Source: an uncultured Actinomycetes bacterium
Lineage (GTDB): Bacteria; Actinomycetota; Acidimicrobiia; Acidimicrobiales; Microtrichaceae
Direction: 5' to 3'
NCBI GenBank assembly: GCA_903873135.1
Contig: CAIQNH010000052.1
Span: forward strand, 1-49,751
DNA length: 49,751 nt
Below, piece after piece: positions 24,361 to 46,059 of the stretch; position 1 is the stretch's first letter, and every line of letters begins with the position of its first letter. Under the pieces are notes generated by a model. It saw only the letters and a list, made by a program, of their open reading frames with translations, made no database searches and was not told the DNA's origin. Both the position numbers and the translations under genes were made by a program.

Positions 24361-25572
24361 TCACCCCCGGGGGTCCGTCGGGGGTGGGACGACCGGGGCG
24401 ATGGCCGACTCCCCGAACCGCTCCCGGACCCGGTCGGCGGCCCGCAGCGCCGCCGACCGGTCGGCCGACTGCGACGCGCTGCCGCCGAGGTCCAGGCGCA
24501 GCTGGGTGGCCCCACCCGCCGGGACGAGGGCGCTGATCCCCACGCCGAGCAGCCGCACCCCCCGCTCGACCGGGAGTCCCTGGAGGAGCTCCCGGGCGGT
24601 CCGGGCGACGACCAGGCCGTCGGCGGTCGGCTCGTCGAGCGTCCGGGACCGGGTCGTGGTGACGAAGTCCGCCCAGCGGAGCTTCAGGTGGACCGTCCGA
24701 CCCTCGAGGTCCCGCCGGCGGGCGCGGCGCGCGACGCGCTCGGCCATGCGGACGAGCTCGGGGTCGAGCTCCGACAGGCTCGTCCGGTCACGGGCGAAGG
24801 TCTCCTCCTGGGAGATCGACTTGACCTCCAGGTCGGCCACGACGGGACGATCGTCCCGACCGTTGGCCAGGTCGTGGAGCTGCCGCCCGACGGCGGGACC
24901 GAGGTGCGACACCAGCGCGTCGAGCGGGAAGACGGCCAGGTCCGCCACGGTGTCCACGCCGAGCGCACGCAGCCGGTCGCCCGTGACCGGACCGACACCC
25001 CACAGGTCGGCGGCAGGCCGGTCCTGCAGGAAGCGGAGCTCGTCGGCGGGTTCGACGACGCACACCCCGTCCTGCGGTGCGTCCGACCCCGGCAGCGGCT
25101 TGGCCGCCTCGGAGGCGAGTTTCGCCACGAGCTTCGTGGAGGCCACCCCGACCGACGACCAGAGCCCCTCCCGCTCGTGCAGTCGGCGTCGGAGCTCCGT
25201 GGCCAGCTCCCGGTCGGTGCCGAACAGTCGGCCGGCTCCGGAGACGTCGAGGAACGCCTCGTCGAGCGCCAGCGGTTCCACCAGGGGGGTGAACTCCGAG
25301 CAGCACGCCATGATCCGGGCCGAGATCCCGGCGTAGTGGGCGTGGTCCGGCGGGACGACCACCAGGTCCGGGCACAGGCGGCGCGCCCGGGCCGTGGCCA
25401 TGGCCGACCGCACGCCGAACACCCGTGCCTCGTACGAGGCGGCGGCGACGACCCCCCGGTCGCCACCTCCGCCCACCACGACCGGTCGCCCGGCGAGCTC
25501 GGGGTGACGGAGGAGCTCGACGGACGCGAAGAACGCGTCCATGTCGACGTGGAGGATCCGCCGGCCGCTCAC
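24361..25572 (-). CDS. dinB: DNA polymerase IV (Y-family)
   Basis: This is a translesion DNA polymerase of about 403 aa. The N-terminal catalytic block RRILHVDMDAFFASVELL has the metal-binding Asp residues and the steric-gate aromatic. Other blocks are SYEARVFGVRSAMATARARRLCP, the second acidic site LALDEAFLDVSG, KLVAKLASEAAKP and LWGVGPVTGDRLRALG in the thumb/HhH. The little-finger domain (EETFARDRT) follows. The C-terminus ends in basic, low-complexity residues and I see no clear QxSLF-like clamp motif. GTG start at 25572. I found no LexA-like palindrome in the 50-bp promoter region. Confidence 0.95.
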   Translation of the reverse strand: MSGRRILHVDMDAFFASVELLRHPELAGRPVVVGGGGDRGVVAAASYEARVFGVRSAMATARARRLCPDLVVVPPDHAHYAGISARIMACCSEFTPLVEPLALDEAFLDVSGAGRLFGTDRELATELRRRLHEREGLWSSVGVASTKLVAKLASEAAKPLPGSDAPQDGVCVVEPADELRFLQDRPAADLWGVGPVTGDRLRALGVDTVADLAVFPLDALVSHLGPAVGRQLHDLANGRDDRPVVADLEVKSISQEETFARDRTSLSELDPELVRMAERVARRARRRDLEGRTVHLKLRWADFVTTTRSRTLDEPTADGLVVARTARELLQGLPVERGVRLLGVGISALVPAGGATQLRLDLGGSASQSADRSAALRAADRVRERFGESAIAPVVPPPTDPRG

Positions 25573-42656: not shown

Positions 42657-43881
42657 GGACGTTGGCGCCGCTGCGGCGGACACCGTCGCGCACCCGTCGG
42701 TCGCTGCTGACCACGACCACCGGACGCGCCACGGGGAGGTCGGCGACCACGTCGATCAGCACGTCGTCGGCCTCGACCCCGGTCGGGCTGTAGAGGGTCC
42801 GTACCCCGAGCGGCGCCGCCACGGCGAGCCGTTGCCCCACGTCGCCGCCGTCGAAGACGACCACGACCTCGGCACCGGTGCGGGTGGCGACGTCGGTGAG
42901 GAACCCGACCGTCCGGTCCCGGAGCGCCGCGGGTGCGAGCGACCGCCACACCGTCATGCCCAGGTTGTAGCCGTCGACGAACACGACCACCCCCGGCACC
43001 CGAAGCAGCTGGTCCACGGCTGAGGGCGATCCCTCCAGCACGCCCCGCCGCAACTGGATCGGACGCCGACGTTCGCTGCGGGCCTGCCGGGTAGGGTCGG
43101 GCGCCGGGGCGGCCGACGACGTCGCCGGCGGTCCACCCACCGGCTCGGATCCACCCTCGCCACCGGCCGTCTCGGACAGGTCGTCGGACAGGGCGACGAG
43201 GTCCTCCTCCACCCGGGCCAGCTCCGACAGCACGCCGCTGAGCGCGGCCCGGAGCGCCGCGACCGACTCGAGCCGACGCTCCCGGCCGGCGACCGTCTCC
43301 GGGTCGACGCCGCTGCGGACCGCCCGGAGCTCGTCGTGGAGCTCGGCGAGCGAGCGTCGACTCGCGGCGAGCTCCCCCACCGCACGGTCCCGTTCACCGA
43401 CCGCGGTGCGCAGGTCGGCGGTGACCTCCTCGAGGCGTCGGGCGAGCTCGACCCGCTCGGATCGCTCGGCGTCGACCGTCGCGCGCAGACCGGCCAGGTC
43501 GTCCCGGAGCGCATCCAGCTCGTCGCGCTGGCGGGCCAACCGGGTGGCGGCGGCGTCGGCACGTCGCGACGCCTCGAGCTCGGCCTGGTGCTCACCCCGA
43601 CGTCGATCCTCGGCCTCGGCATCGGCGAGGAGCTCCGACCACTCCTCCTCCCATCCGGGTGGACGTCGGAGGAACAGCTCCGTCACCCGGTCGACGTCGT
43701 CCCCGTCCGGGATTCCCTCCCCGGACGGACCAGCGGTCGGATCGGCGACGGACCCGGCGGTCGCGTCCCCGGTCGGATCGATCGTCGCCAGCACGCGACG
43801 ACGGAACTCCTCGTCGGTGTCGAGCACGCGTCGCACGGTGTCGATCGTCCGCTCGGCGAGCCGACCCCGGAAGCGGAGCAA
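42607..43881 (-). CDS. NYN (PIN-like) domain RNA/nucleic-acid-binding protein
   Basis: The protein is at least 424 aa. A long coiled coil (about residues 75-240, rich in Arg/Glu/Ala/Leu) precedes a C-terminal NYN domain: VVVFVDGYNLGMTVWRSL, VVVVFDGGDV, DDVLIDVVAD and VVVVSSDRRVRDG hold the acidic PIN-like residues. NYN domains are predicted nucleases of the YacP/Rae1 group. The TTG at 43881 is the only ATG/GTG/TTG in frame after the upstream TGA at 43993, but the in-frame residues between 43992 and 43882 look like the family's N-terminal block, so a CTG start (43959, about 450 aa) or another non-canonical start is possible. Confidence 0.83.
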   Translation of the reverse strand: MLRFRGRLAERTIDTVRRVLDTDEEFRRRVLATIDPTGDATAGSVADPTAGPSGEGIPDGDDVDRVTELFLRRPPGWEEEWSELLADAEAEDRRRGEHQAELEASRRADAAATRLARQRDELDALRDDLAGLRATVDAERSERVELARRLEEVTADLRTAVGERDRAVGELAASRRSLAELHDELRAVRSGVDPETVAGRERRLESVAALRAALSGVLSELARVEEDLVALSDDLSETAGGEGGSEPVGGPPATSSAAPAPDPTRQARSERRRPIQLRRGVLEGSPSAVDQLLRVPGVVVFVDGYNLGMTVWRSLAPAALRDRTVGFLTDVATRTGAEVVVVFDGGDVGQRLAVAAPLGVRTLYSPTGVEADDVLIDVVADLPVARPVVVVSSDRRVRDGVRRSGANVLRSEELWAWGQESARG

Positions 43882-43992
43882 CGGCGCCAGCGCGGCCGGC
43901 GGTGGAGGCGGGTCGGCCTCGAGCCCACCGCGGGCGACGGCGAGCGAGCGCTGCGTCAGCGGGACGAGGAGGCGGTGCTCGGCGTCGACGGC

Positions 43993-44241
43993 TCAGCCCT
44001 CGACGGCGGCGTCGTCGTCCTCGAGCTCGACCACGGCGTCCCCGGTGCCGCACCAGTGGCACACGACGGACTCGACGGACTCGTCGAGGACCTCGACGTC
44101 CTCGACCTCGAGCTCGCCGCCGACGGTGTAGTGGTGGAACGCCCGGGTCCGGCGTGTGGTGGTGACGTCGAACCGGGTCAGGTTGCCGCACGAGGTGCAG
44201 CGGTAGCGGACGCTCGGACTGGAGGAGGCCGTGTCGGACAC
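43993..44241 (-). CDS. Small zinc-ribbon protein
   Basis: The protein is about 82 aa with two Cys pairs, YRCTSCGN near residue 15 and CHWCGTGD near residue 62, and an acidic C-terminus (ELEDDDAAVEG). It looks like a zinc ribbon with a long insert between knuckles. The function is unknown. GTG at 44241 follows TACGCT by 6 nt (leaderless). It is followed in the same frame by the NYN gene. Confidence 0.82.
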   Translation of the reverse strand: MSDTASSSPSVRYRCTSCGNLTRFDVTTTRRTRAFHHYTVGGELEVEDVEVLDESVESVVCHWCGTGDAVVELEDDDAAVEG

Positions 44242-44247
44242 GCCCCG

Positions 44248-44253
44248 AGCGTA
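44248..44253 (-). promoter_or_regulatory. -10 element of the zinc-ribbon gene
   Basis: TACGCT on the minus strand ends 6 nt before the GTG at 44241. Confidence 0.5.
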
Positions 44254-44290
44254 ACCCCGGCCGGTGCGGACGCCCGGGAGTGGCGGGTGC

Positions 44291-44319
44291 TTGACCCCGA
44301 ACGCACGTTCGACTCAGAT
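44291..44319 (+). promoter_or_regulatory. Promoter of the exonuclease/GIY-YIG gene
   Basis: TTGACC (44291-44296), 17 bp, TCAGAT (44314-44319), then 6 nt to the GTG at 44326. The spacer contains a LexA-like palindrome (44297-44312). Confidence 0.6.
44297..44312. promoter_or_regulatory. Candidate LexA (SOS) box
   Basis: CCGAAC-GCAC-GTTCGA matches the actinobacterial SOS box TCGAAC-N4-GTTCGA at 11 of 12 conserved positions, with a perfect CGAAC/GTTCG inverted pair. It lies exactly in the -35/-10 spacer, where LexA would block RNA polymerase. Confidence 0.7.
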
Positions 44320-44325
44320 GTGGTG

Positions 44326-46059
44326 GTGGGAGCGACCGGGGCACGGCGGGCGGCGACACAGGGGTCCCTCGAGGACCTGGGCGACCCGCTGGTCGACACC
44401 ACCTTCGTCGTCGTCGACGTGGAGACCACCGGAGGCTCGCCGGGAACCGACCGGCTCACCGAGGTGGGGGCGGTCCGCCTCCGGGGTGGAGTGGTCGAGG
44501 GCACGTTCGCGACGCTGGTCAACCCCGGCCGGGCCCTCCCGCCGTCCATCACCGTGCTCACCGGCATCACGGAGTCGATGGTCGTCCGGGCGCCGCGCAT
44601 CGAGACGGTCCTGCCGTCGCTGCTGGAGTTCATCGGTGACGCCGTGGTGGTGGGCCACAACGTGCGCTTCGACCTGGGCTTCCTCGAGGCGGCGCTTGAG
44701 CGCTCGGGTCGGCCGCCGCTGCGACCCCGCTCGGTGTGCACCCTCGCCCTGGCCCGGCGTCTGCTGCGCGACGAGGTGCCCAACTGCAAGCTCGGCACGC
44801 TCGCGGAACGCCTGCGACTCCCGCACCGTCCGGCGCACCGAGCGCTGGACGACGCCCTGGCGACGGCCGACCTGCTGCACGTGCTGCTCGAACGGGCCGG
44901 ACGGCTCGGCGTGCGCGGCCTCGACGACCTGCTGTCGCTCCCCGGGATGGCGGGACACCCACAGGCGGCGAAGCTCCGCCTGACCGACCGGTTGCCCCGC
45001 TCCCCCGGCGTCTACCTCTTCCGGGACGGCCGGGGCGCGGTGCTCTACGTGGGCAAGGCGACCAACCTGCGGGCCCGGGTCCGGAGCTACTTCTCGAGCG
45101 ACGACCGACGGAAGGTGGGCGCACTGCTCCGCGAGACCGCCCGGATCGACCACAAGTCGTGCCCGTCCACGCTCGAGGCCGAGGTCCTCGAGGCCCGGCT
45201 GATCCGCGACCTGCTCCCCCGCTACAACCGGCACGGCACCAACTGGCAGCGGTCCCCCTACGTGAAGCTGACCCTGGGTGAGGACTTCCCCCGGCTCGCA
45301 GTGGTCCGGCAGGTCCGCGACGACGGCGGCCACTACCTGGGGCCGCTGCGCTCCCGGTCCCAGGCGCAGCAGGTCGTCGAGGCCGTCGAGTCCGTCGTCC
45401 CCCTCCGGCGGTGCCGGCAACCGGTCCGAGCCGGCACCGCCCGACCCGCACCGTGCACGTCGGCCCAGCTCGGCGTGTCCACCTGCCCGTGCGCCGGCGG
45501 CACCACGCCCGAGGAGTACGCGCAGCACGTCCGGACCGCACTCAGAGGTCTGACGTCGGACCCGGCGGTGCTCGTCGAACCGCTCCGCCGCCGCATGGCC
45601 GACCTGGCGGCGGACCACCGGTTCGAGGAGGCGGCGCTGGTCCGGGAGCGTCTCGCCGGCCTGACCCGGGCGCTGCAGCGTGACGCCGTCCTCCACGCGT
45701 CGGTGGACTGCGCCCGGTTGGTCGTCGACCTGCCCGACGGCGGCGCTGCGGAACTCCGCCACGGCGTGCTCTGGCAGGTGTGGGCGCCCGGTCCGACGCC
45801 GCTCGGCGGCGACCGGTCCGAGCTGGCTGCGCGTGCGGTCGAGGTCCGACCGGAACGGCTGCCGGTGCCCGGCGAACCGGTGCCCCTCGAGCTGGCCGAC
45901 GAGCTCGTCACCGCAGCTGCGTGGCTGACCCGACACGCCGGGGACCTGCGCGTCGTGGACGTCGACGGCGTGCTCGCCTCACCGTGGCCGCGGGTGGAGG
46001 TGGTGCGTCCGGTGCCGGCCGCCGGTGACGGGGCTAGGCGTCGGCCGCGGGCGGCGTGA
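44326..46059 (+). CDS. DEDDh exonuclease fused to a Cho/UvrC-like GIY-YIG nuclease
   Basis: The protein is about 577 aa. The N-terminal DEDDh 3'-5' exonuclease has FVVVDVETTGG, GHNVRFDLGFL and HRALDDALATADL, so all catalytic residues are present. A short linker leads to a GIY-YIG domain: GVYLFRDGRGAVLYVGKATNLRARVRSYF and the catalytic Glu in TLEAEVLEARLIRD. A C-terminal UvrB-contact-like region (RMADLAADHRFEEAALVRERL) follows, but the UvrC RNase H-like and HhH domains are missing, as in E. coli Cho. It is probably a DNA-repair nuclease. The GTG at 44326 is set by the -10 box 6 nt upstream; 44287 and 44320 are in-frame alternatives. Convergent overlap of 26 nt with trpD. Confidence 0.92.
   Translation: MGATGARRAATQGSLEDLGDPLVDTTFVVVDVETTGGSPGTDRLTEVGAVRLRGGVVEGTFATLVNPGRALPPSITVLTGITESMVVRAPRIETVLPSLLEFIGDAVVVGHNVRFDLGFLEAALERSGRPPLRPRSVCTLALARRLLRDEVPNCKLGTLAERLRLPHRPAHRALDDALATADLLHVLLERAGRLGVRGLDDLLSLPGMAGHPQAAKLRLTDRLPRSPGVYLFRDGRGAVLYVGKATNLRARVRSYFSSDDRRKVGALLRETARIDHKSCPSTLEAEVLEARLIRDLLPRYNRHGTNWQRSPYVKLTLGEDFPRLAVVRQVRDDGGHYLGPLRSRSQAQQVVEAVESVVPLRRCRQPVRAGTARPAPCTSAQLGVSTCPCAGGTTPEEYAQHVRTALRGLTSDPAVLVEPLRRRMADLAADHRFEEAALVRERLAGLTRALQRDAVLHASVDCARLVVDLPDGGAAELRHGVLWQVWAPGPTPLGGDRSELAARAVEVRPERLPVPGEPVPLELADELVTAAAWLTRHAGDLRVVDVDGVLASPWPRVEVVRPVPAAGDGARRRPRAA

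Follow-up and report, generated by a model that had tools for sequence, protein, structure and literature searches.

A predicted LexA operator within the core promoter of a Cho-like+Exo nuclease gene of Acidimicrobiia, and its probable exchange for a PafBC-type promoter in class Actinomycetes

The window—the whole stretch of 49,751 nt that was analysed—harbors a gene for a protein fusing two nucleases, a compact promoter directly before it and a small gene that diverges from it across 78 bp of intergenic DNA. The relevant features are the following.

43993–44241, minus strand: conserved open reading frame for an 82-aa protein with two CxxC pairs, divergent from the nuclease gene
44291–44296, plus strand: −35 element TTGACC, read from the sequence
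44297–44312, no strand assigned: predicted LexA (SOS) box CCGAACGCACGTTCGA, called from the own-genome motif match and orthologue conservation
44314–44319, plus strand: −10 element TCAGAT, read from the sequence
44326–44328, plus strand: likeliest start codon, a leaderless GTG, called from the peak of orthologue starts 12–15 nt past the box
44326–46059, plus strand: Cho-like+Exo protein (DEDDh exonuclease, GIY-YIG nuclease, Cys-rich region and putative UVR motif), called from profile matches
44407–44877, plus strand: DEDDh exonuclease domain (RNase_T, Pfam), residues 30–186
45004–45228, plus strand: GIY-YIG endonuclease domain (Pfam), residues 229–303
45571–45663, plus strand: UVR (UvrB-binding type) motif, weak Pfam match, residues 418–448

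Profile matches established the two-nuclease architecture, with RNase_T and GIY-YIG domains and a score of 556 bits (cut-off 454) for NF005907, the DEDD exonuclease model of NCBIfam. The catalytic residues of both domains, numbered from position 44320, were invariant in 85/85 sequences: D33, E35, D118, H173 and D178 of the DEDDh exonuclease and G230, Y243, R253, E291 and N303 of the GIY-YIG nuclease. Further downstream, the UVR motif matched Pfam at E=0.0038, below the gathering score, and no other C-terminal Pfam domain was detected. An orthodox Cho was ruled out, given the exonuclease domain and the absence of a Cho model among the profile matches. Of the original description as a DEDDh exonuclease/Cho-like nuclease, the fusion thus stands, but the protein is no true Cho; it is rather a Cho-like+Exo protein with a putative UVR motif, a published actinobacterial subfamily (PMC1564403). 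The mechanically listed reading frame 43336–46059 is an over-extension, the gene starting at about 44326.

The original reading of the promoter as TTGACC-17-TCAGAT, followed 6 nt later by a GTG start, was borne out. The −10 element is trailed by three in-frame GTG codons (44320, 44323 and 44326), and it is the third that lies at this distance, 13 nt past the box; we prefer it because in-frame starts of orthologues peak 12–15 nt after the box. CCGAACGCACGTTCGA fills the 17-bp spacer save for a single base before TCAGAT and agrees, as had been stated, with TCGAAC-N4-GTTCGA at 11/12 bases. It is the only site in the window with at most one mismatch to this pattern (expected, 0.18), a count not significant by itself, with 17/100 shuffled windows also containing such a site. 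What renders CCGAACGCACGTTCGA credible despite the weak count is its location, together with its conservation and the boxes that lexA and recA carry in this same genome. The dinB gene of the window (motif at 25545, minus strand) lacks a box, as had been noted. Sites with at most two mismatches (10 in the window, 580 in the genome) were uninformative, because TCGA is common in this genome's DNA, and the exact GAAC-N4-GTTC core, a far cleaner search pattern, was used instead.

The original prediction had been staked in advance on the lexA and recA promoters of this very genome, and the attempted refutation failed: both carry the same motif as CCGAACGCACGTTCGA. There is one clear full-length copy of lexA and one clear copy of recA, both on contig C60, and the LexA protein displays an Ala-Gly cleavage site and the protease Ser/Lys pair. 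Upstream of lexA, in a region that also serves a divergent LysM gene and nrdR (L034 1889–2007, G000:C60), there are four GAAC-N4-GTTC sites, while the recA box ACGAACACCTGTTCGT sits between TTGA- and TACGCT-like elements, 97 nt ahead of the recA reading frame. Further clean boxes precede dnaE2, imuA', uvrA and ruvC, with that of ruvC overlapping the start; upstream of uvrB, the exact box was not found. Genome-wide, there were 42 core sites as compared to 0 for the reversed pattern, the remaining ones mostly falling within coding sequence. Because the same motif stands before the genome's own lexA, recA, dnaE2, imuA', uvrA and ruvC, we take GAAC-N4-GTTC, on this sequence evidence, to be the SOS box of the organism.

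Inspecting the core sites also turned up three loci of separate interest. A perfect SOS box, TCGAACATGTGTTCGA, lies where an HNH-endonuclease-like protein starts (L360 near 1196, G000:C210:9995); the protein ends GCCFPGC...LHH...HHHGIVH, has no Pfam match and resembles the 13E12-type SOS genes of mycobacteria. Another box (L361 1619–1634, G000:C28:6818) precedes a MoxR-type AAA+ ATPase with a VWA/DUF2201 protein behind it, a pair that possibly constitutes a new SOS operon. The third (L359 2145–2160, G000:C104:24144) is located ~45 nt ahead of a 175-aa protein without Pfam match.

We gathered orthologues from named genomes and from other genomes of the class and phylum, many of them metagenome assemblies, and compared their upstream regions, counting a box wherever an exact GAAC-N4-GTTC fell in the 350 nt that precede the conserved domain. 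The exact core was present in 43/54 Acidimicrobiia promoters (shuffle mean 0.60), in 38/40 further Acidimicrobiia from other orders (0.27) and in 32/60 promoters from other classes (0.27), bearing out the expectation that orthologues retain the palindrome upstream. The promoter of Aquihabitans, a cultured relative, has two boxes. Among 24 named Actinomycetes, there was none (shuffle mean 0.03). Shuffling yielded 0–2 exact cores per orthologue set; permuted half-sites gave no more than 2, and the reversed pattern was never found (0). Most of the 13 Acidimicrobiia without an exact core retain a one-mismatch core within ~65 nt of the domain, and one-mismatch cores in Acidimicrobiia often follow TTGACA directly. 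The spacer of nearly all boxes, that of the window included, reads R-N-N-Y (purine at position 1, pyrimidine at position 4), and box presence tracks the protein tree, with 8 changes as opposed to 27 in shuffles.

The geometry of the window promoter recurs in these orthologues. Of 136 orthologue boxes, 42 have a TTGAC starting 5–8 nt ahead of them and 55 a TANNNT starting 0–2 nt behind them, and in-frame start codons form a sharp peak 12–15 nt past the box, consistent with a leaderless mRNA. As these elements are in register with the box, the predicted operator falls within the nuclease gene's core promoter.

In all probability, then, the palindrome is a LexA operator between −35 and −10 that would control a damage-induced, leaderless nuclease mRNA. 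SOS control of the Cho-like+Exo gene is very likely, and very likely old, because own-genome motif, conservation and promoter geometry coincide; the proposal of SOS control of this two-nuclease fusion thereby gained support from the lexA/recA motif and the orthologues alike. We infer LexA binding and induction, and likewise substrate and reaction, along the following lines. In the undamaged cell, LexA on the box would block RNA polymerase. Upon DNA damage, RecA on single-stranded DNA would trigger LexA self-cleavage and, with LexA gone, a leaderless mRNA would be made from GTG 44326, encoding the GIY-YIG endonuclease fused to a 3'–5' exonuclease. The enzyme would likely nick 3' of a lesion and then trim back the damaged strand, supplementing UvrABC when induced. 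Such a repair role is likely in view of the domain identity and an older published proposal for the mycobacterial fusion.

Could the operator chiefly serve the small zinc-ribbon gene that diverges from it (44241, minus strand), with the nuclease gene a mere neighbor? The two genes do have their intergenic region in common and adjoin each other in 20/54 Acidimicrobiia loci. However, the box is kept in 26 of the 34 loci without the zinc-ribbon neighbor, and the −35 and −10 elements and the start codon all line up with the nuclease gene, making this reading very unlikely; the small gene could nonetheless share the operator.

Alternatively, the box might be real yet a minor modulator, with PafBC, as in mycobacteria, the main route of damage induction. 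The window genome does encode PafB- and PafC-like WYL proteins beside pafA (L358 3353–5250, G000:C45). The PafBC promoter motif has been given as tTGTCRgtg-8-TannnT (PMC5656591) and as TGTCGG-N10-TA-N3-T and variants (PMC8151990). Against a PafBC-driven promoter, TGTC[AG]G-N10-TANNNT had 0 sites in the entire window genome, nuclease promoter included, and its exact form occurred in 0/65 promoters of tree members outside the Actinomycetes clade. This genome's PafBC may read another motif, but as an account of the nuclease promoter we regard the PafBC reading as every bit as improbable as the preceding one. A coincidental match, in DNA that is high in GC and rich in TCGA, though in keeping with the shuffled windows above, is hardly conceivable and is refuted by the conservation of the box at the same place in 113/154 orthologue promoters (Acidimicrobiia and other classes) versus ~1 expected from shuffles, with promoter elements in register across them.

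Control by LexA, the reading we retain for the window gene, is not universal for the family: as judged from the promoters, it is absent in class Actinomycetes, which appears to use a PafBC-type promoter instead. Every named Actinomycetes in the protein tree (Actinomadura, Blastococcus, Allokutzneria and others) falls within one fully supported clade of 20 members, where the box is found in 1/20; elsewhere, it is present across deep clades. TGTC[AG]G-N10-TANNNT occurs in this clade exactly in 14/20 promoters and with at most one mismatch in 19/20. Overall, it precedes 28/52 box-less as compared to 2/112 box-bearing genes (Fisher p = 4e-15, ignoring relatedness), and of the gaps from 5 to 17 that were tried, box-less promoters showed the motif at exactly 10 only. 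Whole Actinomycetes genomes contain many such sites. In at least one genome (G656; L298, G656:C31), the LexA box TCGAACTAGTGTTCGC extends across the −10 of a RecA-NDp promoter, which may represent an intermediate under dual control. Some long-branched, distant members carry neither LexA box nor PafBC motif. Separately, a RecA-NDp-like site lies just upstream of uvrC in one family member (G009:C1:899379–899400, minus strand), which points to a possible role of PafBC at further repair genes there.

Taken together, LexA repression is probably the older state in Actinomycetota, swapped for PafBC activation from a RecA-NDp promoter in the ancestor of class Actinomycetes. The simplest reading is that PafBC control took the place of LexA control once, in a direction that the quick, midpoint-rooted tree does not prove. 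If true, the handover between these two unrelated damage regulators would imply strong selection against producing the enzyme in undamaged cells, whatever the sensor. Predicted SOS control would also indicate when this puzzling fused nuclease is produced.

The SOS box and the protein type are each known separately. E. coli Cho is an SOS-induced UvrC-like nuclease. Like the window protein, for which this is predicted, it is a UvrC-type GIY-YIG nuclease under LexA; unlike it, Cho lacks an exonuclease domain and has a Cho-specific C-terminus, whereas the window protein has an N-terminal DEDDh domain and a putative UVR motif, and operator and phylum differ as well. We take Rv2191 to be the mycobacterial exonuclease/GIY-YIG fusion, and our literature searches returned nothing linking Rv2191 with UvrC. 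Rv2191 is listed among stress-activated genes (PMC10178195), and PafBC membership of the mycobacterial orthologues may already be tabulated in the original RecA-NDp/PafBC regulon lists.

The Cho-like+Exo subfamily (PMC1564403, a paper that also discusses E. coli Cho) has the domain order ExoIII/DEDDh, GIY-YIG, Cys-rich region, UVR, which the window protein shares as far as its putative UVR motif holds; the portion of that paper available to us does not describe regulation, to which our analysis adds predicted LexA control and its apparent replacement. The actinobacterial LexA/SOS regulon, as known from M. tuberculosis, S. venezuelae and C. glutamicum, uses the same operator as the window genome—tCGAAC-N4-GNNCGa in S. 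venezuelae (PMC9380542)—and its targets lexA, recA, ruvC, dnaE2 and uvrA overlap. Within the accessible text of these papers, Cho-like+Exo is not named as a target, and that of the S. venezuelae LexA ChIP-seq study (PMC9380542) names no exonuclease or UvrC-type target; our literature searches likewise returned no paper combining the SOS box and LexA with Acidimicrobiia. For that class and other early-branching ones, by comparison, the gene is a conserved predicted target, by which the SOS regulon would gain a member across a large and little-studied section of Actinomycetota. After a switch to PafBC, LexA studies in mycobacteria and Streptomyces would be expected to miss the gene. The PafBC/RecA-NDp response (PMC5656591, PMC8151990, PMC8223512) is, like LexA/SOS, damage-induced and ssDNA-sensed, and its motif precedes the Actinomycetes orthologue while being absent from the window genome. 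PafBC is an activator acting through sigma adaptation, LexA a repressor; the apparent switch from one to the other at one and the same promoter provides a tractable case of regulon rewiring.
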